The position numbers were made by a program, and so were the translations under genes. The notes below the pieces were generated by a model. The model was given only the letters and a program-made list of their open reading frames with translations. It did not search any database and was not told the DNA's origin. Below, piece by piece: positions 1 to 10,947 of a DNA stretch of 64,000 nt. How positions within the stretch are numbered: position 1 is the stretch's first letter; each line of letters begins with the position of its first letter. Origin of the DNA: Asaia bogorensis (GTDB lineage: Bacteria > Pseudomonadota > Alphaproteobacteria > Reyranellales > Reyranellaceae); the NCBI GenBank assembly GCA_945889625.1, contig CAMDCE010000026.1:1-64000 (forward strand), read 5' to 3'.

Positions 1-882
1 CCGACGCGGGCGCTATGGCCGGACGCGCCGATTCTCGTCGGCAGTGACGACACCTTCAATCCCAAGATGAACAACGTGCGCAAAGGTCTCGAAGCGGCGA
101 GCCGCCCCATCGTGGCGTTGTGCGACGCAGGCGTCGTGCTTGATTCCGAGGTGCTTGGCCGGATTGCCGCATCACTTTCGAAGGAAGTCGGGCTCGTGCT
201 GGCACTGAAGGCGGGAGAGACGCCGGAGAATTTCGCCGCCGAAATGGAGCGCGCCTACATTGACGGCCATCAGGCGAAGTTCCTGTTCGCAGCCGACAGG
301 ATCGGCATTGCCGTGGCCTCAGGTGGGGTCACCGTGCTGTCGCGCGAGACCCTCCAGCGGATCGGCAACTGGCAGGGCTTCAACCGCTGGATTGCCGACG
401 ACTATTCTGTCGTCCGGTCGGTGCGCGAACTCGGGCTTGCGACGCGCTTGGGCGATGTTATGCCGCAGCTACCGCTCGGCCGGCGCGATTGGTCGGTCGT
501 GTGGCGACGCCAGGTCCGCTGGGCGCGGACCCGGCTACGCCTGCCGGTGTGGCCGCTGGTGCTGTGGGAGCCGGCGATCGGCTGGGCCGTGTCGGGCATT
601 GCCGGGGCGGCGGCGTTGGGTGGTCTGGGTGCCGGCCCTGGTGTCGTCTTCGCCGGACTTCTGGTCCACACCGTCGCGTGGCTGAGCGGCGAGAAGTGGT
701 TCATGGCCGGCCGCGGCCTGTCGTTCGGGCCGCGCGCAGCAGCGGCGGCCCTGCTGCGCGAGGCGTTGGCGCCGGCGCTCATGGTGAGCGCCCTCAGCAG
801 CAGGTCGATCGATTGGCGCGGCACCGACCTCGGCGGGCAATGGCGTAGCCGAGGGGATGATGCCGCAGAGAAATCCGTATGA
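1..882 (+). CDS. GT21-like (ceramide glucosyltransferase family) membrane glycosyltransferase, 5' end missing
   Basis: The reading frame is open from base 1, so the start lies outside the window; the first internal Met is at 67. The motif NPKMNNV at the window edge is the family GT21 signature. It is followed by CDAG (the position of the second acidic motif, usually DSD), ADDY, and RRQVRW, which fits the (Q/R)xxRW acceptor motif. Two or three hydrophobic segments follow in the C-terminal third, as in GT21 proteins of bacterial envelopes. It probably transfers a sugar to a membrane lipid at the inner face of the cytoplasmic membrane; donor and acceptor cannot be read from sequence. It overlaps the STAS gene by ATGA, so the two are likely co-translated. 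It may start or prime the glycan made by the genes downstream. Confidence 0.8.
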   Translation, partial: PTRALWPDAPILVGSDDTFNPKMNNVRKGLEAASRPIVALCDAGVVLDSEVLGRIAASLSKEVGLVLALKAGETPENFAAEMERAYIDGHQAKFLFAADRIGIAVASGGVTVLSRETLQRIGNWQGFNRWIADDYSVVRSVRELGLATRLGDVMPQLPLGRRDWSVVWRRQVRWARTRLRLPVWPLVLWEPAIGWAVSGIAGAAALGGLGAGPGVVFAGLLVHTVAWLSGEKWFMAGRGLSFGPRAAAAALLREALAPALMVSALSSRSIDWRGTDLGGQWRSRGDDAAEKSV

Positions 883-1262
883 CAGGGGCTGAAGCGGAGG
901 AAGCGATCGCAACGGTCATGTTGCCGGAACGCGTTGATTCGGCGACTTCATCGTCGGTCCAGGCGACGATGCTGGATGCGCTGCGGCGCCGCGCGTCGGT
1001 GATCGTTGACGGCAGCGAAGTCACCTATATGAGCGCCGCCGGCGTGCGCGCCCTGGCCGTGGTTCTGCACCGGGCCAGGGAGCAGAATGTGCGCATCGTC
1101 TTCTGTCGTTTTGGCGGCCCTGCGGCGGATTGCCTGGAGGTCAGCGGCTTTTCAAAGCTCCTTGACGTGGCGGATTCAGTGGAAGAAGCGACACGTCGGC
1201 TGCGTCCCAAGCTCATGGGCAGGCCAGCCGACCGGTTGCACGTGCGCGGTACCACAGGCTAA
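879..1262 (+). CDS. STAS-domain protein, anti-sigma-factor-antagonist type
   Basis: A 127-residue single-domain protein. The stretch VIVDGSEVTYMSAAGVRAL matches the STAS core, with Ser52 where SpoIIAA-like proteins are phosphorylated. Such proteins act in the cytoplasm as partner-switching regulators or as small regulatory domains. The start ATG overlaps the stop of the upstream glycosyltransferase (ATGA). No cognate HPK-type kinase or phosphatase gene is visible in the window. Placed between a glycosyltransferase and the export genes, it most likely tunes glycan synthesis or export at the protein level, but that is inference. Confidence 0.8.
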   Translation: MTGAEAEEAIATVMLPERVDSATSSSVQATMLDALRRRASVIVDGSEVTYMSAAGVRALAVVLHRAREQNVRIVFCRFGGPAADCLEVSGFSKLLDVADSVEEATRRLRPKLMGRPADRLHVRGTTG

Positions 1263-1339: not shown

Positions 1340-2488
1340 TTGACAATTTGGAGCTCGCTGCGCGCCGTGGCGCTACCTGTGGCCATTGCTTGTGGCCTGG
1401 GTGTCGCCGGCTGTGCGGCCTTGCCGGGCGACGGTCCGTGGATGGGCGGCGCCGGGTCGGCCTCCACCGAGGCCCTGCCGTTTGATGTCATTGACCTCAC
1501 GCCAACCACCGTTGTCGCGTTCCGGCCTCCAGCCAGCGTCGATCGTCCGTCGATCACCAGCACCCTGTCGGCCGGCGCGCGCGTCGCGGTCGCCCCAGGC
1601 GATGTGCTGAGAGTCCGCATCTACGAAGCCTACGCGGGCAACATCTTTCCGACGATCCAGAGTCCTGGTGCCGATCTCGGTAGCCAACGTGTCGGCGATG
1701 ACGGCAACATCAACGTGCCCTACGTCGGAGTCGTGCGCGTCGCTGGCCTCGACCTGCCCGAGATCGAACGCCGAATCGTCCAGCAGATCGGCACCAAAGC
1801 GCAGGATCCGCAGGTCATTGTCGAGATCGTCGCCGACCGGACCCACACGGTCATGGTCTCGGGGGACGTGAAAACCCCCGGTCGCGTGTCGGTTCTCGAA
1901 GGCGTGCGATCGGTTATCGACGCGATCAACGCCCGGGGCGGCCCGGCGGCCACCGGTGGTGGCGGAGGAGGGCCAGCACCAGGGGCGAACCAGTTCGAGG
2001 TGGTTCTCCGGCGTCAAGGTCAGGTGATCCTCACGGCACAGTATTCGGACCTCTTGGCCGGAGCTGACGTTGGAATCCAGAAAGGCGACGAAATTGTCGT
2101 CCGCGCCAGTTCCAAACAGTTCACGGTCCTTGGGGCCGTCATGAAGGCCGGGAACTATGAATTGACCAAGTCCAACCTGACGCTCCTGGAGGCACTGGGG
2201 CAGGTGAGCGGTCTCAGAGACGAACGGGCGAACAAAACGGGCGTTTATGTATTTCGGATGGGGGACCTGTTGAACAATCCTACGGCAAAAGCCCGCGTTT
2301 TTCGGTTGGACCTGCAACAGCCAGTGTCTATCTTCGTGGCCCAGCAATTCGGGATGCAGGCCCGAGATGTGGTATATGTGTCGAATTCGCCACTGCATGA
2401 ATACGATAAGATCCTGACGCCGATTTATCGTACCTTCTCGATCATTGGTGTCGCGAGGGGCACGGTGATTCCAACGACGTTGTTCTGA
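1340..2488 (+). CDS. Polysaccharide export outer-membrane lipoprotein (Wza/OPX family)
   Basis: Start chosen at TTG 1340, with GGAG about 8 bases upstream; a GTG at 1310 would add 10 residues ahead of the signal peptide. The N-terminus is a lipoprotein signal peptide ending in a VAGC lipobox. A Poly_export domain follows (APGDVLRVRIYE ... QRVGDDGNINVPYVG ... EIERRI), then SLBB-type segments (VMVSGDVKTPGRVSV, FTVLGAVMKAGNYEL). About 382 residues is normal for the OPX family, which forms the outer-membrane channel for capsule or exopolysaccharide. No PCP/Wzc or Wzx/Wzy gene follows; the next genes encode a membrane-fusion protein and a DevCA-type ABC exporter, an unusual partnership. Confidence 0.88.
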   Translation: MTIWSSLRAVALPVAIACGLGVAGCAALPGDGPWMGGAGSASTEALPFDVIDLTPTTVVAFRPPASVDRPSITSTLSAGARVAVAPGDVLRVRIYEAYAGNIFPTIQSPGADLGSQRVGDDGNINVPYVGVVRVAGLDLPEIERRIVQQIGTKAQDPQVIVEIVADRTHTVMVSGDVKTPGRVSVLEGVRSVIDAINARGGPAATGGGGGGPAPGANQFEVVLRRQGQVILTAQYSDLLAGADVGIQKGDEIVVRASSKQFTVLGAVMKAGNYELTKSNLTLLEALGQVSGLRDERANKTGVYVFRMGDLLNNPTAKARVFRLDLQQPVSIFVAQQFGMQARDVVYVSNSPLHEYDKILTPIYRTFSIIGVARGTVIPTTLF

Positions 2489-2530
2489 CCCCGATATTGG
2501 GTAATTCGAGAGAGTTTAGGACAGTTTTGG

Positions 2531-3529
2531 ATGGCGAGAGCTAAGAAATTCAGATGGAGTGCAGCAGGGCTCGCCGTGATGTTCTTCATCGGCGCCCTGG
2601 TGCTGTGGATTACGCCCAGCCGCCAGACCAGCAGCGCCCAGGACGGGGTGCGTCCCTCCGGCCCCCTCATCTCGCGGGGCTACACCGACGCTCCGGCCGG
2701 GACCGCGGCGCTCGGCGGCAATCCCTCGGCCGGGCCCGTCATCGTCGAATTGCGCATCGTTGAAGGCCAGAAGGTCAAGCGTGACGACATCCTCGCCGTC
2801 ATGTCCAACTACGCCAAGTCTGCCATTACCGTGCGGTCGGTCGAAGCCGAACTCGTGAAGGCCAAGGAGCAGCACAAGGCGATGGTGTCGGGCTACCGTG
2901 TCGCCGAAATCGCCGAGCAGGAAGTCGCCGTGAAGTCGTCGGCCGAGGAGGCCAAGCTCAAGGTCCTCGAAATGCAGCGATCGGGAAAGCCCCCGGACGT
3001 GAGGCAACTCGAGGTCAACATCTCCCAGTGGAACTTCGAACGCGAGCAAGCGAAGCTTCGCGTCAAGAAGGAGACGCTCCAGTCCGACCTCGCCCAGATC
3101 GATAGCGACATTAGTGTCATCGCGGCGCGCCTCGACAACGCGCGTACCACCGCGGAGGAGTCGCTGGTGCGCTCGCCGATCGACGGCGTCGTGGTCCAGA
3201 TCTACGCGCGCCAGGGCGAGCGCGTGCCAGGGCCCGGCATCGTCAAGATCGTTGACATGAGCCAGCTCCGTGTATTGGCTGACGTTGACGAATTGCACCT
3301 CGGCCGCGTCGTGACAGGGGGCAAGGTCGAGGTCACGTTCCGCGGTAGCCCGACGGTTTACAAAGGCACGATCTCGCGCGTGGCGCCCACCGTGAAGCGG
3401 ATGCAGCGCGTCGAGCCTGACGGCGGTTCGTCGACCGACGCCCGGGTTGTGCAGGTCGAGATCGAACTCGACGATCCTTCCAGCATGCCTCAGGTGCTGG
3501 GACGCGAGACGCGCGTCACCTTCCTCTGA
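2531..3529 (+). CDS. Membrane-fusion (HlyD/DevB-like) subunit of an ABC exporter
   Basis: 332 residues. One transmembrane segment (about residues 13-30) is followed by a periplasmic body: a half-lipoyl motif (VIVELRIVEGQKVKRDDILAV), a long alpha-helical hairpin (about 100-200, rich in K, E and Q), then the second lipoyl half (VRSPIDGVVVQIYARQGERV) and a beta-barrel domain. This is the architecture of DevB-type adaptor proteins that link an inner-membrane ABC exporter to an outer-membrane channel. The stop overlaps the next start (TGATG), so it is translationally coupled to the permease. In cyanobacteria DevBCA exports glycolipids through TolC; here the linked outer-membrane protein is of the OPX type. 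Confidence 0.87.
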   Translation: MARAKKFRWSAAGLAVMFFIGALVLWITPSRQTSSAQDGVRPSGPLISRGYTDAPAGTAALGGNPSAGPVIVELRIVEGQKVKRDDILAVMSNYAKSAITVRSVEAELVKAKEQHKAMVSGYRVAEIAEQEVAVKSSAEEAKLKVLEMQRSGKPPDVRQLEVNISQWNFEREQAKLRVKKETLQSDLAQIDSDISVIAARLDNARTTAEESLVRSPIDGVVVQIYARQGERVPGPGIVKIVDMSQLRVLADVDELHLGRVVTGGKVEVTFRGSPTVYKGTISRVAPTVKRMQRVEPDGGSSTDARVVQVEIELDDPSSMPQVLGRETRVTFL

Positions 3530-4794
3530 TGGTTCTGACACTGCCTGCCATCGCGTCGCCGCGCCTGCGGCGCTGGTGGCCGCAGCTCTCCCTGTCTCGC
3601 CTGCGCGCCGCGGCCAAGACGGCGACGGCAATGCCGCTTGGTGCACAGCAGCTCAAGCGGCAGCGCACCAGCACTCTTTTGTCGCTTGCGGGCGTTACCG
3701 CCAGCCTGCTTGTGATCTTCGCTCAGCTCGGGATCGAGCGGGCAGTCTACGACTCGGCCGTTCGCCTCCATCGCTCGGTGCTGGGGGACCTTGTCTTGGT
3801 GCCGGCGGGGTTCAAGTCGATGCAGCTCCATGCCGAGGTGCCGGTCGCCATGACCGATATCGTGTCGGCCAATCCGGCTGTGGCCCAGACCTCGCCGTTC
3901 TGGTTCGGCGTCATGTCGATCGGCCACGCCGGCATGCCGGCGACGCGGCGACTTGCCTGGTATGCCGTCGATGTCGAGCGCCCGGCGATCGATGTTCCGG
4001 GACTGCGTGACAATCTCTACAAACTCCGTGTCGAACGCCGCATCCTGTTCGACCGCGCGTCGCGGCCTTATTTCGGCGATCTCGCGGAAGTCGTCGAGCG
4101 CGGCGTGGAAGTCCCGGTGCAGGGCCCTCCGGACAACCGTGGTCTCCTTCGCGAGATGTTCGTTGTCGGCACGATAGCGATCGGGCCCAACGTGGTGAAC
4201 GACGGTTCCGTCTTGATGTCCGAGGGCAGCATGTCCGAGCTGTTCGGCCCATGGTGGGGCGACCGACCGGCCTTTATTTCTGTCCGGCTCGTGCCCGGCG
4301 CCGATGTGGCCGCAATACGGGCGGAACTCAACAAGGCGATGGGCGGCCGCGCCGAGGCGATCACGCGCGAGGAATTCGAGAAGCGCGAGCGGAACTATTG
4401 GTCGCGCGAAACGCCGGTCGGCTACATCACCGACCTGGGCTTCGTCATGGGCCTGATGATCGGCATGGTTTTCATCTACTATGCCCAATACCAGATCATC
4501 CGCTTCTACCTCCCCGAATACGCTATCCTGAAAAGCCTTGGCTTCGACTGGTGGTTCTTTCTTTGCATGATCGGCCAGATCGGCGCCGCTATCATTACGC
4601 CCGCCTTTCTCGTCGCCTTCACCCTGGCACGCCTCACCTACGGCATCGCCGAAGCCTCGATCCACCTCGGCATGGCGATGGGGCTGCGCGAAATGGTCGT
4701 GGCGCTGGTGGCGTCCGTGATCATGACGGTCGTGTCGAGTCTGTTCGCGATCCGGCGCTTGTGGAAAGTCGACCCGATCATGTTGTTCGAGTGA
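3529..4794 (+). CDS. DevC-like ABC exporter permease (FtsX/MacB fold)
   Basis: 421 residues with one N-terminal transmembrane helix (around 45-65), a periplasmic domain of about 230 residues, and three C-terminal helices (around 300-325, 340-370 and 385-410). This is the four-helix type VII layout of MacB/LolCE/DevC permeases. The C-terminal cytoplasmic tail ends in RRLWKVDPIMLFE, typical of the family. It starts one base inside the stop of the fusion-protein gene, and its own stop is two bases before the ATPase start, so the three subunits form a compact operon. A mechanotransmission role in moving a lipid-linked glycan or glycolipid is inferred. Confidence 0.85.
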   Translation: MVLTLPAIASPRLRRWWPQLSLSRLRAAAKTATAMPLGAQQLKRQRTSTLLSLAGVTASLLVIFAQLGIERAVYDSAVRLHRSVLGDLVLVPAGFKSMQLHAEVPVAMTDIVSANPAVAQTSPFWFGVMSIGHAGMPATRRLAWYAVDVERPAIDVPGLRDNLYKLRVERRILFDRASRPYFGDLAEVVERGVEVPVQGPPDNRGLLREMFVVGTIAIGPNVVNDGSVLMSEGSMSELFGPWWGDRPAFISVRLVPGADVAAIRAELNKAMGGRAEAITREEFEKRERNYWSRETPVGYITDLGFVMGLMIGMVFIYYAQYQIIRFYLPEYAILKSLGFDWWFFLCMIGQIGAAIITPAFLVAFTLARLTYGIAEASIHLGMAMGLREMVVALVASVIMTVVSSLFAIRRLWKVDPIMLFE

Positions 4795-4796
4795 CC

Positions 4797-5513
<717 letters not shown>

Positions 5514-5527
5514 GCGGCGGGACGAGC

Positions 5528-6772
5528 GTGTTGCTTTCGGCCATCGACCTCGTTGTGGCGCTCTGTCTGGCCGTGCAGTTCGCTATCGCCGGCTACTACT
5601 TCTACCTGCTCTATTGGATGATGGAGGCGGCGCCAGCCGACCAGTCAGCGCCGCCGCTGCCCGGCGAGGTACCGTGCGTGCTGGTGCAGATTCCGGTCTA
5701 CAACGAACCGGTCGTGGTCGAGCGGGTGCTCTGCGCCGTCGCCGCGCTGGACTGGCCGCGCGATAGGCTGAAGATCCAGCTCCTCGACGACAGCACCGAC
5801 ATCACGTCCGATATCGCCGTTCATGTCGTGGCGCGCCTGCGTCGCGAGGGTGTCGACGTCGATCATGTCCGACGCTCCGATCGCGCCGGCTTCAAGGCAG
5901 GGGCGCTGGTGGCCGGCATGGCATTGAACGACGCTCCCTACATCGCGGTGTTCGACGCCGATTTCACGCCGTCTCCCGACTGGCTGGGCCGCGCCATGGC
6001 TGCGATGCTCGCCGAGCCCAAGGCCGCTTTCGTGCAGACCCGCATCGAATGGGGCAACGGCGAACAAAACTGGCTGACCCGGGCGCAGCGTCTGATGCAG
6101 GACGCGCACTTCGCCGTCGAACAGGACATCCGGGCCCGTCGCGGCGTGCCCTTCCAGTTCAACGGCACGGGAGGCATCTGGCGCCGCGCCGCGGTCGAGG
6201 AGGCCGGGGGGTGGTCGCACGACACCTTGTCAGAGGATCTGGACATGGTGCTGCGTACCCACCTCAAGGGATGGGGCGGGGTGTTTCTGATGGAGCCGCA
6301 TGTCGTCGGCGAGTTGCCGCAAAAGCTCGACGATTTCGGCGCCCAGCAGAGCCGCTGGTCGAAGGGCTTCGTGCAGGTTGCCCGCAAGCTGTTGCCGCAG
6401 ATCTGGAACTCTGGCTGGTCGACCGAGGCCAAGCTCACGACGACCGTTCAACTCGGCCAGCAGCTCATCTTCCCGGTGCTGGCGATCGGCGTCGTGTGCC
6501 TGGCGCTGTCAGTGTTCGGCCATGGCCGTCTGCTCGGTGGCTTCCGCTTCTTCCTTTGGCTGTGGCTGCTGGGCATGCTGGTCGTGCTGTTCGGCATGAC
6601 CTGGGGGGCCTATCGTCGGCTGAAGCGCGGCGGCGTGGCGGGCTACCTGGTCACGGCGGCGAGTGTGCCGGCCTTGATCGTCTACCTCGCCGTCGCCAAC
6701 GCCGGCGCGATCGTGGGCGCCGGCTTCGGCAAGAAGACCGAGTTCAAGCGAACGCCGAAGACGGGCGCCTGA
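5528..6772 (+). CDS. GT2 processive-type glycosyltransferase, CslA/CslC-like (copy 1)
   Basis: Start GTG 5528, preceded by a GGGACGAG purine tract; upstream in-frame codons belong to the shadow of the ATPase gene. The 414-residue protein has one N-terminal membrane helix, a cytoplasmic GT2 domain with DDSTD (87-91), DAD (143-145), ED (236-237) and QQSRW (273-277), and about four C-terminal helices. The stretches VQIPVYNE, FNGTGGIWRR and AGGWS resemble plant and bacterial CslA/CslC glucomannan and glucan synthases more than BcsA: there is no PilZ domain and the length is about half. It probably polymerises a beta-linked hexose chain at the inner membrane; the sugar is unknown, though ManC nearby points to GDP-mannose. 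Confidence 0.87.
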   Translation: MLLSAIDLVVALCLAVQFAIAGYYFYLLYWMMEAAPADQSAPPLPGEVPCVLVQIPVYNEPVVVERVLCAVAALDWPRDRLKIQLLDDSTDITSDIAVHVVARLRREGVDVDHVRRSDRAGFKAGALVAGMALNDAPYIAVFDADFTPSPDWLGRAMAAMLAEPKAAFVQTRIEWGNGEQNWLTRAQRLMQDAHFAVEQDIRARRGVPFQFNGTGGIWRRAAVEEAGGWSHDTLSEDLDMVLRTHLKGWGGVFLMEPHVVGELPQKLDDFGAQQSRWSKGFVQVARKLLPQIWNSGWSTEAKLTTTVQLGQQLIFPVLAIGVVCLALSVFGHGRLLGGFRFFLWLWLLGMLVVLFGMTWGAYRRLKRGGVAGYLVTAASVPALIVYLAVANAGAIVGAGFGKKTEFKRTPKTGA

Positions 6773-6779
6773 TCGACCG

Positions 6780-8078
6780 ATGGCCATCATCGCCACCCTA
6801 GCCCTTCTGTTTGCGACCATCTTCACGGTGTGCTGCCTGCTGCTCGCGGCATTCATCGGCAGTCTCCTGTATATGGTGATCCTGAATCATCGTCTGAGGC
6901 CGGCCGGGCTCGACCGCGAGGAGTCACTGCTCGCCACGCCGTTGCCGCCCGATGCCGAGCTGCCGCACGTCGTGGTGCAGATCCCGTCCTTCAACGAGGG
7001 GGCGGTGCTGCGGCGCGGTGTCGAGGCGGCGGCGCTTCTCGACTGGCCACGCGGCAAGCTCCATATCCAGGTCCTCGACGACAGCACCGACGAGACGGCC
7101 GAGCTTGCCCGCTCCGTCGTGGCTGAACTCAGGGCACAGGGCGTCGACGTCGTGGCCCTGCAGCGCACCGACCGCAGTGGCTTCAAGGGCGGTGCCCTGC
7201 ACGAGGCCATGCAGCAGACGCCATACGACTATTTCGCCATTTTCGACGTCGACTACGTGCCGCCGCCGGACTTCCTCCGCCGCTGCATGCGGGTATTCGC
7301 GGCCGAGCCCGACACGGCGTTCGTACAGGCGCGCTTCGACTTCCTCAATCCGCATGAGAATGCGCTCACCGAAATGCAGATGGTGACGCTCGACGCCCAT
7401 CTCGGCATCGAGCAGGCAACGCGCTCCTGGGCGGGCCATCCGCTGCCGTTTAACGGCACCTGCGGCATCTGGCAGCGCTCGGCGATCGAGGCCGGTGGCG
7501 GCTGGAAGGGCGATACGGTGACCGAAGATCTCGATCTCACCTATCGCGGCTGGATCAAGGGCTGGCGCGGCGCGTTCCTCACCAGCGTGGCGGTGCCGGG
7601 CGAACTGCCGGCCGATTCAAAGACCTGGCTGCGCCAGCAACAGCGCTGGCAGGACGGTTTTCGGCATGTCTCGATGCGGATGTTTCCGGCAATCCTGAAA
7701 AGCCGCGACATCGGGCGATCGGCCAAGGCCGCGGCGCTGTTGCATCTTTGCATGTCGCTCAACCAGCCGGTGCTGCTGGTCGGCGTCGTGTCAGGCCTGC
7801 TTGCCGCGTTGCTGGCGCCGGCGCTGGTGCCGCTCCTGCTGAAGTTGTTCGTACTCACCGTGGTCTGGGTGCTGGTCTGCGCCACGACCTTCTTGCGCGC
7901 CGGGCACAATTTTATCCGCAGTGGCGAGATGCCGCCACTACGCTTCGCCATCGTGCTACTGCGCTTCGTCGGCGGTCAGGTGGCTATGCTGGTGCGTTCG
8001 CTGAGTGTCCACGTCAGGAAGACCATGAATCGACCGAAGTCCGTCGTCTTCGACCGCACACCCAAACGCGGCAATTAA
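6780..8078 (+). CDS. GT2 processive-type glycosyltransferase, CslA/CslC-like (copy 2)
   Basis: 432 residues, 7 bases after the first GT2 gene. It has the same layout: an N-terminal helix (about 3-34), DDSTD (100-104), DVD (156-158), ED (249-250), QQQRW (286-290) and about four C-terminal helices. It is a diverged paralogue of the preceding gene, and all catalytic motifs are intact in both, so neither is an obvious relic. The pair could act on different donors or make alternating linkages. It ends just before a 98-base palindromic element shared with the convergent manC. Confidence 0.87.
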   Translation: MAIIATLALLFATIFTVCCLLLAAFIGSLLYMVILNHRLRPAGLDREESLLATPLPPDAELPHVVVQIPSFNEGAVLRRGVEAAALLDWPRGKLHIQVLDDSTDETAELARSVVAELRAQGVDVVALQRTDRSGFKGGALHEAMQQTPYDYFAIFDVDYVPPPDFLRRCMRVFAAEPDTAFVQARFDFLNPHENALTEMQMVTLDAHLGIEQATRSWAGHPLPFNGTCGIWQRSAIEAGGGWKGDTVTEDLDLTYRGWIKGWRGAFLTSVAVPGELPADSKTWLRQQQRWQDGFRHVSMRMFPAILKSRDIGRSAKAAALLHLCMSLNQPVLLVGVVSGLLAALLAPALVPLLLKLFVLTVVWVLVCATTFLRAGHNFIRSGEMPPLRFAIVLLRFVGGQVAMLVRSLSVHVRKTMNRPKSVVFDRTPKRGN

Positions 8079-8176
8079 AGCGCGATGACCTTTACTCGAA
8101 TCGCGCCGTCGGCGCGGCTCGTGCACCGCTTCGCTGCGGGAGCCGGGCCGACGGCCGAAGCAAGTGTCATCGCGCT
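8079..8176. repeat. Palindromic element between convergent genes, likely bidirectional terminator
   Basis: It begins at the base after the GT2 stop codon. Terminal inverted arms AGCGCGATGAC (8079-8089) and GTCATCGCGCT (8166-8176) enclose nested pairs GCCGTCGGC/GCCGACGGC (8105-8113 and 8147-8155), GGCTC/GAGCC (8116-8120 and 8140-8144) and CCGC/GCGG (8126-8129 and 8136-8139). The whole folds as one long interrupted hairpin between two gene ends. No T-tract follows. It resembles a dispersed REP-like element doing duty as a terminator. Confidence 0.6.
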
Positions 8177-8200
8177 GTAGAGTCTTTCGCTCGGAAATAC

Positions 8201-9607
8201 TCAAACGCGCGCGTAGATATCCTCGTAGCGGGTGATGTCGTCCTCTTCGAGGTAGTGGCCGGTCTGGACCTCGACCACCTCGAGCGGCTCGGTGCCGGGA
8301 TTGCTGAGGCGGTGGATGCCGCCCATCGGGATGTAGATCGATTCGTTTTCGTGCAGGGTCATGATCTTGCCGTCGAGGACCACCTCGGCAATGCCCTTCA
8401 CCACGACCCAATGTTCTGCCCGGTGCTTGTGGCTCTGCAGGCTGAGTTTGCCGTTGGGATTGACGGTCAGTCGCTTGGCGCGGAAGCGGTCGCCGCGGTC
8501 GATGTCCTGATAGCTGCCCCAGGGACGGTGCATGATGGCGTGCTCTGTCGCCGCGCGATGCTTGCTGTCGGACATGCGCTGCACGACATCCTTCAGTCGC
8601 GGAAGATTGTCGCGATGGCCAACCAGCACGGCGTCGCCCATCGCCACCACGACCACTTCCTCAACGCCGATGACGGCTGTCAGCGGCCCGTCGGAGCGGA
8701 TATAGGAGTTGCGCACATGGTCGAGTTCGACCGGGCCCTCGGTGACGTTGCCGGCCGAGTCGGCGTCGCCGATGTCGAGCAGGGCATCCCAGGTGCCGAG
8801 ATCGGACCAGCGGAACTTCGCCGGCACCACCCAGCACTTGTCGGTCCGCTCCATGACGGCGTAGTCGATCGACTTGGCCGGCGCCTTGGCGAAGGCCTCG
8901 GCGTCGAGGAACACGGTCGAGCCGATCCTCTTGGCCTTGGCGACAGCTTCCTCGGCGGCAGCAGCCATGGCCGGCTCGAAGCGGGCCATTTCCGACAGCA
9001 GCACGTCGGGCGCGAACAGGAAGTAGCTTGCATTCCAAAACAGCCCTTCGGCGATGTAGCGCAGCGCCGTCTGGGCGTTGGGCTTCTCGACGAAGGCCGT
9101 CACCTTCTGCACCGAGCCGATATGTTCGCCACCGGGCCGGATGTAGCCGTAGTCGGTCTTGGGCTCGGTGGGCGGGATGCCGAAGGTGACGATGCCACCG
9201 CGGTCGACAGCTGCCAGGCCGTCGCGGCAGGCTGCGCGGAATTCCTCGACGCCGATCACCATGTGGTCGGACGCCATTGCCAGAACCGCCTTGGCTCCCT
9301 GCGTCCGCGCATAGACCGCCGCAGCCGCCATCGCAGGCCCGGAATCGCGGCGCTCCGGTTCGACCAGGATGTCGATCTCCATGCCGACGTCCTTGGCTTG
9401 CTGTTCGGCCATGAAGCGGTAGGCATCGTTGGTCGCGATCACAGGTCGGCCGAACAGGCCCCGGTCGGCCACGCGCAGCAGCGTCTGGTGAAAGGTCGAC
9501 TGCTTGCCGAGCAGCGGCACGAACTGCTTGGGCATGCTCTCCCGCGATAGCGGCCACAGTCGCTTGCCGGAACCTCCGACCAGGATGACGGGCGTGATGA
9601 GCGACAT
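8201..9607 (-). CDS. manC: Mannose-1-phosphate guanylyltransferase / mannose-6-phosphate isomerase
   Basis: 468 residues, the usual length of the bifunctional AlgA/ManC/XanB type. The N-terminal nucleotidyltransferase begins MSLITPVILVGGSGKRLWPLSRE; the usual GGSGTRLWP has Lys in place of Thr. The FVEKPNAQTA region is followed by the C-terminal cupin (HRAEHWVVVKGIAEV) that holds the isomerase metal site. It supplies GDP-mannose in the cytoplasm. It lies convergent to the two CslA-like glycosyltransferases, and the association suggests that mannose is a building block of the exported glycan. Confidence 0.93.
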   Translation of the reverse strand: MSLITPVILVGGSGKRLWPLSRESMPKQFVPLLGKQSTFHQTLLRVADRGLFGRPVIATNDAYRFMAEQQAKDVGMEIDILVEPERRDSGPAMAAAAVYARTQGAKAVLAMASDHMVIGVEEFRAACRDGLAAVDRGGIVTFGIPPTEPKTDYGYIRPGGEHIGSVQKVTAFVEKPNAQTALRYIAEGLFWNASYFLFAPDVLLSEMARFEPAMAAAAEEAVAKAKRIGSTVFLDAEAFAKAPAKSIDYAVMERTDKCWVVPAKFRWSDLGTWDALLDIGDADSAGNVTEGPVELDHVRNSYIRSDGPLTAVIGVEEVVVVAMGDAVLVGHRDNLPRLKDVVQRMSDSKHRAATEHAIMHRPWGSYQDIDRGDRFRAKRLTVNPNGKLSLQSHKHRAEHWVVVKGIAEVVLDGKIMTLHENESIYIPMGGIHRLSNPGTEPLEVVEVQTGHYLEEDDITRYEDIYARV

Positions 9608-9631: not shown

Positions 9632-9763
9632 TCAGGCTGCGGCCGAAGCCGCGTGACGGGCCGCGATATAGCCGAAGGCGAGGGCGGGGCCAATGGTCAG
9701 GCCGGCCCCCAGGCAGGCGCCGCCCATGACGCGGGAAATGCCCGTGACCGGCCGAAGCTTCAT
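9632..9763 (-). pseudogene. C-terminal relic of a KstD-like FAD-binding dehydrogenase
   Basis: A 43-codon frame on the minus strand. The core SRVMGGACLGAGLTIGPAL, followed by AFGYIAARHA, matches the extreme C-terminus of 3-ketosteroid dehydrogenase/fumarate-reductase-type flavoproteins, where a VMGG-x-(Y)PGPGxTxGPAxxFGYIAA segment contributes to FAD binding. The rest of the gene (more than 500 residues) is absent. Its ATG overlaps the stop of the channel gene (ATGA), so it may still be translated as a short peptide. The match is made by eye, so a small unrelated membrane peptide cannot be excluded. Confidence 0.6.
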
Positions 9764-10947
9764 GATGCGGCTCTTGCGGCGTTACTTTCGTTCTCGCTGC
9801 GGCGACGTTGCGCCTCCTTCTCCACGGCGGCAACGAGGGAAGGGATGTGCGCGGCGACTTCGTAGAAGTCGCTGGCATACAGGACCAGCAGCGTGGTGGG
9901 CTGGGTGGTGACGACGGTGGCGCTGCGCGGCAGCCGATCGAGCAAAGCCATCTCGCCAAAGAATCCGCCTTGGCCCAAGCGGACCGGAGCGCGCGGCAGG
10001 CGCACCTCGACCTCGCCCTCTGAAATGAAGAACATCGAATCGCCTGCCTCGTCGCGGCGCACCACGACGATGCGTGGCGGATAGTGGCGCACCCGGAGTT
10101 TGCTCACGATCTCCGACAGGGTGACCGTGCCGAGCTCGGTGAACATCGGCACCTTGGTCACCTGATCCCAGACCCGTAGATATTCGCGTCGACGTTCTTC
10201 CTCGGCGAAGCCGGTGGCGAGGATACCTGTCATGAGCGCCAGCACGATGATGCCGCTCACCATGACGACCGAACCGACCATCTTGCCGCCCACCGATTGC
10301 GGCACGACATCGCCGTAGCCGGTCGTCGTCAGCGTCACGACAGCCCACCACAGGGCGGCGGGAATGTTCCCGAACAGCTCGGGCTGGCGGCTGCGTTCGA
10401 ACAAGTGCGTCGAGGTCGCGGCCATCACGAGAACGATGATGAAGACGATCAGCACGCTGGCCAGCGTCGCGCGCTCATTGGAGATCACGCGCGCCAGCGT
10501 GCCCATGGCTGGTGCGTGCAGGCCGAGCTTCAGGACCCACAGGACGCAGAACATCGCCGCATAGTCGCTGTCGGCGCCGACCGAGCCGGTGGTAATGGCG
10601 AAAGCTGGCAGCACCGCGACCAGGCCAATCAACCCGTTGGCCGAAAGTGCCCAGCGCAGGCGCGCGGACCCTTCCGATCGGCCGGCGAAGCGCGGCGCCT
10701 CGGGGGCCACCCAGAGGCGCATGATGTATTCGACAAGAAATATGGCAGCCACCATGACGATCACGATCGGCAGCAGCCGAGCGAGCCCGTATGGCAGCTT
10801 GTCGACCGACGAAATCGCGACCGCGAGCAGTCCGGAGCCAAGCGCGAGCAAATGAAAGGCGCGCCAGCGCCGTCCGCTGGAACTGTTATCGGAATGCCGC
10901 AGGATCGCGTAGATGCGCGCGCGGGCCGTCGATGCCGTTACCGCCAC
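9760..10947 (-). CDS. Cyclic-nucleotide-gated potassium channel (MlotiK1-like)
   Basis: 395 residues. Six hydrophobic segments lie between about 30 and 245. A pore loop with the potassium selectivity filter TTTGYGD sits before the last one. A cytoplasmic C-linker follows, then a cyclic-nucleotide-binding domain (about 275-375) whose phosphate-binding cassette reads GFFGEMALLDRLPRSATVV, with the Arg expected to contact the cyclic phosphate. The fourth helix lacks a regular ladder of Arg residues, so voltage gating is unlikely, as in Mesorhizobium MlotiK1. It may couple cAMP or cGMP to membrane potential. The start codon is not certain. Confidence 0.88.
   Translation of the reverse strand: MAVTASTARARIYAILRHSDNSSSGRRWRAFHLLALGSGLLAVAISSVDKLPYGLARLLPIVIVMVAAIFLVEYIMRLWVAPEAPRFAGRSEGSARLRWALSANGLIGLVAVLPAFAITTGSVGADSDYAAMFCVLWVLKLGLHAPAMGTLARVISNERATLASVLIVFIIVLVMAATSTHLFERSRQPELFGNIPAALWWAVVTLTTTGYGDVVPQSVGGKMVGSVVMVSGIIVLALMTGILATGFAEEERRREYLRVWDQVTKVPMFTELGTVTLSEIVSKLRVRHYPPRIVVVRRDEAGDSMFFISEGEVEVRLPRAPVRLGQGGFFGEMALLDRLPRSATVVTTQPTTLLVLYASDFYEVAAHIPSLVAAVEKEAQRRRSENESNAARAAS

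Follow-up and report, generated by a model that had tools for sequence, protein, structure and literature searches.

The window examined here, bases 1-64000 of contig C26 (64,085 bases) in a 5.2-Mb, 94% complete draft genome deposited as Asaia bogorensis and grouped in this analysis with Reyranella, opens with eight tightly packed genes on the plus strand, GT21-STAS-OPX-MFP-DevC-DevA-GT2-GT2. They encode a lipid-type glycosyltransferase, a STAS-domain protein, an OPX lipoprotein, a membrane-fusion protein (MFP, the adaptor), the permease and the ATPase of a DevBCA-like pump, and two GT2 synthases. The block OPX-MFP-DevC-DevA is conserved within the genus and, beyond it, in three sister genera. 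With a probability of roughly 0.48, slightly short of even, the core formed by GT21, STAS, OPX, MFP, DevC and DevA would be a glycolipid exporter whose MacB/DevBCA-type pump is served by a Wza-type channel and not by TolC. The first-pass annotation had listed the six genes from OPX to the second GT2; frames and profile matches place all six consecutively on the plus strand, with the junctions it gave, TGATG between MFP and DevC and two bases from the DevC stop to the DevA ATG. It had left out the GT21 and STAS genes of the same run.

In the proposed pathway, GT21 would put a sugar on a membrane lipid. The DevBCA/MacB-type pump, acting from the periplasmic side, would drive the product outward by way of the adaptor, which would pass it into the OPX channel standing in for TolC. 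In Reyranella and one sister genus, two BcsA/CslA-like GT2 enzymes would lengthen the sugar chain, and Wzm/Wzt would move the product, linked to its lipid, from one side of the inner membrane to the other; two ABC engines would then work in series. We infer that MFP and OPX are in contact, that the substrate is a lipid and that the two pumps act in this order. In Anabaena, as described in a passage of PMC8277102, heterocyst glycolipids leave by DevBCA and HgdD, a TolC homologue, and MacB-type pumps, in part of PMC5985334, push a periplasmic substrate through adaptor and outer-membrane channel, crossing of the inner membrane requiring another pump. An OPX protein working with DevBCA was not described in the literature searched, which consisted of the titles and abstract openings of open-licence papers among the matches listed. 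The arrangement may, though with a probability below even, represent a new class of envelope-spanning exporter, in which a MacB-type mechanotransmission pump with an OPX exit, fed in Reyranella by Wzm/Wzt, would extract the lipid-anchored glycan from the inner membrane and so fill in a missing step. A natural operon with a MacB-type pump beside an OPX gene makes the pairing testable and, if the pairing is true, outer-membrane components are interchangeable between tripartite pumps and capsule channels.

Gene content, gene order, conservation and family assignments were observed directly. The DevC alignment matched 62 of the 76 genomes of the whole order. In the window's genus the match was strong in 55 of 65 genomes (one partial), weak in one and absent in nine; the sister genera matched throughout (g455, 1/1; g456, 4/4; g457, 1/1), and no match was obtained in the four genomes of genus g26 or the one genome of the order's other family. 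The 58 loci with a DevC gene, of which 52 are distinct, include 41 distinct loci with the ten-gene order Wzm-Wzt-GT21-STAS-OPX-MFP-DevC-DevA-GT2-GT2, five truncated at a contig end (L035, L036, L044, L045 and L048) and six from sister genera. One of the 41, L047, has OPX in two fragments (8074-9000); L047 and L117 are the same contig in two collections, one of which titles it Asaia bogorensis, apparently a misnomer for a Reyranella-like genome. Loss of the order OPX-MFP-DevC-DevA-GT2-GT2 in relatives had been named in the first-pass annotation as a result that would speak against the exporter; the order is kept. Compared with the nearest relative, L033, the dN/dS values of GT21, STAS, OPX, MFP, DevC and DevA range from 0.08 to 0.18, and those of GT2a and GT2b are 0.12 and 0.14 (GT2b against L043); the genes of the run are under purifying selection.

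The sister genera provide the strongest test of the association of OPX with the pump. The g457 locus (L114) begins at the contig start with Wzt, followed as in Reyranella by GT21, STAS, OPX, MFP, DevC, DevA, GT2a and GT2b. The five loci of g455 and g456 (L109-L113) hold GT21-OPX-MFP-DevC-DevA, and in four of them STAS was detected as well; neither Wzm or Wzt nor GT2a or GT2b was matched within the stretches fetched, that of L109 ending about 2 kb past DevA. In each of the four genera with this DevC, OPX adjoins DevBCA, and since it does so in the five sister loci without a Wzm/Wzt match, a linked polysaccharide exporter alone does not explain the presence of OPX. The other finding that was to count against the exporter, a partner set just upstream of the window, holds in spirit for Reyranella, in the form of Wzm/Wzt and not of Wzc/Wzx/Wzy, and fails for these five loci. 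GT21 was found in all six sister-genus loci. The constant unit is the lipid-type glycosyltransferase with OPX and the DevBCA-like pump; the GT2 pair, previously taken for the synthases of the exported glycan, varies and was not matched in the stretches fetched of the five loci, which leaves GT21 as the constant enzyme. Either a gain of Wzm/Wzt and the GT2 pair in Reyranella or their loss in g455/g456 may have led to this distribution. In all five of L109-L113 a fatty-acid hydroxylase gene lies directly before GT21, identified by PF04116 in the three loci that were scanned and by BLAST in the remaining pair; it matched no other locus among those searched (L033-L060, L071-L095 and L105-L123). 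A hydroxylase next to GT21 points to a lipid substrate, hinting that the acceptor may be a hydroxylated lipid.

Among 385 alphaproteobacterial genomes, 36, including four Reyranella, matched DevC with an E-value of 1e-15 or better. OPX was searched for in the 32 non-Reyranella genomes with DevC and in four controls (three Reyranella and one g26 genome without DevC). It was present somewhere in 18 of the 32, but in none of them within 10 kb of DevC on the same contig, the nearest lying about 17 kb away; in the Reyranella controls it was adjacent to DevC (3/3). Most of the DevC relatives that carry names, with 75-89% identity, come from records of Reyranella, Enhydrobacter aerosaccus and Rhodospirillales, and on these names the genome was placed, as probable, in the genus Reyranella.

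The OPX protein combines Poly_export and SLBB domains with a lipobox, whose cysteine is invariant in 24/24 aligned sequences, and a C-terminal segment homologous to that of Wza. Because its profile aligns with E. coli Wza (2j58) over residues 32-344 of 359, it was assigned to the Wza class with the C-terminal segment. Two OPX paralogs, at 2533-3708 of L093 (contig C79 of the same genome; 63% identical to the operon OPX) and at 9509-10720 of L105 (58%), group in the OPX tree with the Reyranella/g457 side and were not seen within a second cluster of this kind, their neighbours being partly annotated. The nearest published link between the OPX and MFP families that was found, a passage in PMC2850547 according to which OPX proteins of alphaproteobacteria contain MFP-like helical regions, concerns domain exchange and not a joint complex.

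On the pump side, a MacA/DevB-type adaptor gene stands next to those of a MacB/DevC-type permease and its ATPase. The adaptor has a single N-terminal hydrophobic segment (residues 7-31), scores 94.4 bits against the DevB profile (cut-off 129) and finds its best solved matches in MacA chains. DevC aligns with TIGR01185 over the full 1-380 of 380 positions at 177.7 bits (cut-off 290.35), has hydrophobic segments near residues 47-70, 297-318, 342-370 and 380-411 and gave no Pfam match at E 0.001; a sister-genus ortholog matches FtsX with 37.7 bits. DevA reaches 248.6 bits with TIGR02982 (cut-off 295.8). Since the DevB, DevC and DevA scores are all under the curated NCBIfam cut-offs, the pump is referred to as DevBCA-like and not as DevBCA proper. 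In the AlphaFold2 model of the adaptor, the pLDDT is about 81-95 for residues 101-210 of the hairpin, 66 for residues 91-100 and 61.5 for the whole chain. The hairpin tip reads RSGxxP[DE] in 25/25 adaptors, the sister genera keeping the S and the P, and in none of the 25 was the strict RLS motif (R-x3-L-x6-S) of TolC-directed adaptor tips found; the conserved tip and the missing motif are only suggestive of a partner other than TolC. Four other Reyranella carry an MFP paralog that shares about 50% identity with the operon's adaptor (L120 8165-9163, L121 8941-9930, L122 2027-3016 and L123 8897-9892); neither OPX nor DevC was matched in the stretches fetched around it. In L121 the paralog is flanked by a frame that matches P450 and by an amidohydrolase.

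The context upstream of GT21 was invisible in the window because the window begins at a contig end. The tail of contig C99 from the same genome overlaps the window start exactly over 149 bases and contains the first 136 codons of GT21, directly preceded by genes for a Wzm-like permease and a Wzt-like ATPase, 94% and 98% identical, respectively, to those of L033. The view that the locus lacks any polysaccharide exporter was rejected accordingly: base 1 of C26 is also the first base of the window, and Wzm/Wzt are located on C99, so that the missing exporter of the first-pass annotation is an artefact of the contig end. A tRNA-Lys gene precedes the pair in all five relatives' loci scanned, and the gene before Wzm/Wzt in relatives is, judging by its sequence, gyrA. 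The permease belongs to ABC2_membrane, and the solved chains it matches include TarG. The best scores of the ATPase, up to 214 bits, were with TagH/TarH and further chains, which we take to be A. aeolicus O-antigen Wzt, in alignments starting at residue 10-14. With 8tsi/8tsh, presumably KpsT, it aligned only from residue 36, at 124 bits. According to a passage in PMC11041684, Wzt and TarH possess a gate helix that is absent from KpsT and is suggested to recognise undecaprenyl-diphosphate-linked substrates. We take the N-terminal stretch of the Wzt-like ATPase, from its alignment, for a probable gate helix, a feature at odds with KpsT. A second Wzm/Wzt pair (L092 8679-9554 and the next ATPase, the latter 67% identical) lies on contig C3 of this genome amid other glycan genes, and the genome-wide searches placed neither OPX nor DevC there.

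GT21 scores 112 bits with PF13506 and 93 bits with the HpnI profile, under the cut-off of 310. Both GT2 proteins keep the D, DxD, ED and QxxRW motifs of processive enzymes, as DDS, DAD, SED and QQSRW in GT2a and as DDS, DVD, TED and QQQRW in GT2b; the two are 44% identical over 333 residues, and the best solved match of GT2a is bacterial cellulose synthase. The solved chains that match the STAS protein are sporulation or anti-sigma antagonist proteins. Its residues A53 A54 G55 (AAG), invariant in 22/22 aligned sequences, occupy what we believe to be the position of the phosphorylated serine motif of anti-sigma antagonists. MlaB controls MlaF, and by analogy the STAS protein may control Wzt or DevA.

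Several observations weigh against an exporter that couples the pump to OPX. Ten of the 65 genus genomes have no DevC match or a weak one, most of them fragmented drafts; when five of these were re-examined with the adaptor, one contained the operon as far as the contig reached, another an adaptor piece at a contig edge, two the paralogous adaptor alone and one nothing. Many genomes of the class survey are likewise fragmented, and an OPX gene just past a contig end would be missed. The structure model of OPX is poor (pLDDT 50). The strict RLS motif is also absent in 3/5 comparison DevB proteins, and part of a review (PMC4446572) mentions TolC-binding adaptors without it, which makes its absence a weak argument. 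The paralogous MFP of L121 shares the tip, and OPX was not matched anywhere in the 16 kb of that locus. The lack of a tolC gene, emphasised in the first-pass annotation, is borne out for the operon but says little, because in five plasmid DevBCA clusters chosen from the best matches neither OPX nor TolC is annotated within 5 kb, in an incomplete gene table, and because OEP/TolC-family genes occur at three other places in this genome. Passage of a lipid through OPX is a prediction here, and a shared operon does not prove a shared complex. GfcE is another OPX protein. The abstract of a GfcD modelling study (PMC11494523) tentatively assigns GfcE to free chains and notes that none of that operon's proteins has so far been linked to lipid-anchored ones. 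DevB/MacA adaptors form hexamers, whereas Wza assembles as an octamer, in the parts of PMC2850547, PMC4446572 and PMC5985334 that deal with them, for which reason a simple ring-to-ring fit is not obvious.

The same mismatch in symmetry would be accommodated if the operon encoded two machines, Wzm/Wzt with OPX exporting a polysaccharide, the co-polymerase being unlinked or dispensable, and DevBCA exporting a related lipid via a TolC homologue. This is doubtful, although Wzm/Wzt lie directly upstream, the OEP/TolC-family genes could supply the channel, a Wzc-like gene exists elsewhere in the genome and other DevBCA clusters likewise have no annotated adjacent tolC. OPX stays beside DevBCA in the five sister loci that have no Wzm/Wzt nearby, and the Wzt scores best with TagH/TarH and the presumed O-antigen Wzt chains, a kind that is not known to need an OPX. 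Coupling of the DevBCA-like pump to OPX, as preferred here, agrees with the conserved block, which also occurs without a Wzm/Wzt match. The earlier idea of an adaptor joining a MacB-like pump to OPX is supported in that part; with Wzm/Wzt directly upstream, the GT2-made glycan need not leave through DevBCA alone.

It is improbable that the adaptor replaces KpsE as the bridge from Wzm/Wzt to OPX and that DevCA only gates or resets the channel. A KpsE-type PCP-3 (TIGR01010) was not matched in the operon, in this draft genome, in closed G016 or in G014, and the role of KpsE is compared with that of AcrA in a passage by Kuklewicz and Zimmer (PMC11041684); the sister loci, however, keep adaptor, DevCA and OPX without Wzm/Wzt nearby, and four other Reyranella retain KpsE homologues away from this locus, with a marginal match in G024. 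Least probable by far is a LolCDE-like or lipid-homeostasis pump with OPX as a historical neighbour: DevA does score 170 bits against LolD, yet OPX accompanies DevBCA in every genus with this DevC and is under purifying selection.

Among known systems, the DevBCA-HgdD(TolC) heterocyst glycolipid exporter of Anabaena shares the order of MFP, DevC and DevA and the link to glycolipids; the operon here differs in its Wza-type OPX in place of TolC, its additional lipid-type glycosyltransferase and STAS genes and its profile scores below the Dev cut-offs. MacAB-TolC has the MacA-like adaptor and MacB-type permease and ATPase in common with the operon, in which permease and ATPase are, however, separate genes and OPX is present without TolC. 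KpsMT-KpsE-KpsD capsule export resembles the Reyranella loci in combining an ABC exporter with OPX. Unlike it, the operon lacks KpsE, no KpsC/S (PF05159) was matched in the eight Reyranella genomes tested, the Wzt is of the Wzt/TarH kind, DevBCA is added and five sister loci gave no Wzm/Wzt match; the missing KpsE and KpsC/S and those five loci led to rejection of the reading as an ordinary KpsMT-type capsule locus. Wza-Wzc group 1 capsule export also employs a Wza-class OPX with the C-terminal segment, but no Wzx, Wzy or Wzc family member is among the ten genes or their annotated neighbours. The genome-wide search, which covered Wzz only, gave one match, the Wzc-like gene on contig C71.

Table. 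Positions in the window of the genes and adaptor elements discussed in the text
Feature	Position	Strand	Basis or remark
GT21-type membrane glycosyltransferase (ceramide-glucosyltransferase/HpnI-like)	1..882	+	5' end cut by contig end
STAS-domain protein	879..1262	+	PF01740, 49 bits
OPX lipoprotein, Wza class	1340 (TTG start)..2488	+	PF02563 (Poly_export), SLBB
MFP (adaptor), DevB/MacA-like	2531..3529	+	HlyD_D23, HlyD_3, Biotin_lipoyl_2; DevB profile
Adaptor hairpin (predicted)	2810..3166	+	helices at residues 94-150 and 155-212, AlphaFold2 model
Adaptor tip RSGKPPD	2978..2998	+	without R-x3-L-x6-S motif
DevC/MacB-type permease	3529..4794	+	TIGR01185
DevA-type ATPase	4797..5513	+	TIGR02982; Walker A and LSGG motifs
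GT2 synthase a (BcsA/CslA-like)	about 5528..6772	+	PF13632, PF13641; start uncertain, GTG 5528 or TTG 5531
GT2 synthase b	6780..8078	+	PF13641
Bifunctional ManC	8201-9607	opposite strand	after GT2b; TIGR01479, 544 bits

Beyond the run, manC is adjoined by a gene for an ion channel with a cyclic-nucleotide-binding domain (window 9760-10947, minus strand).

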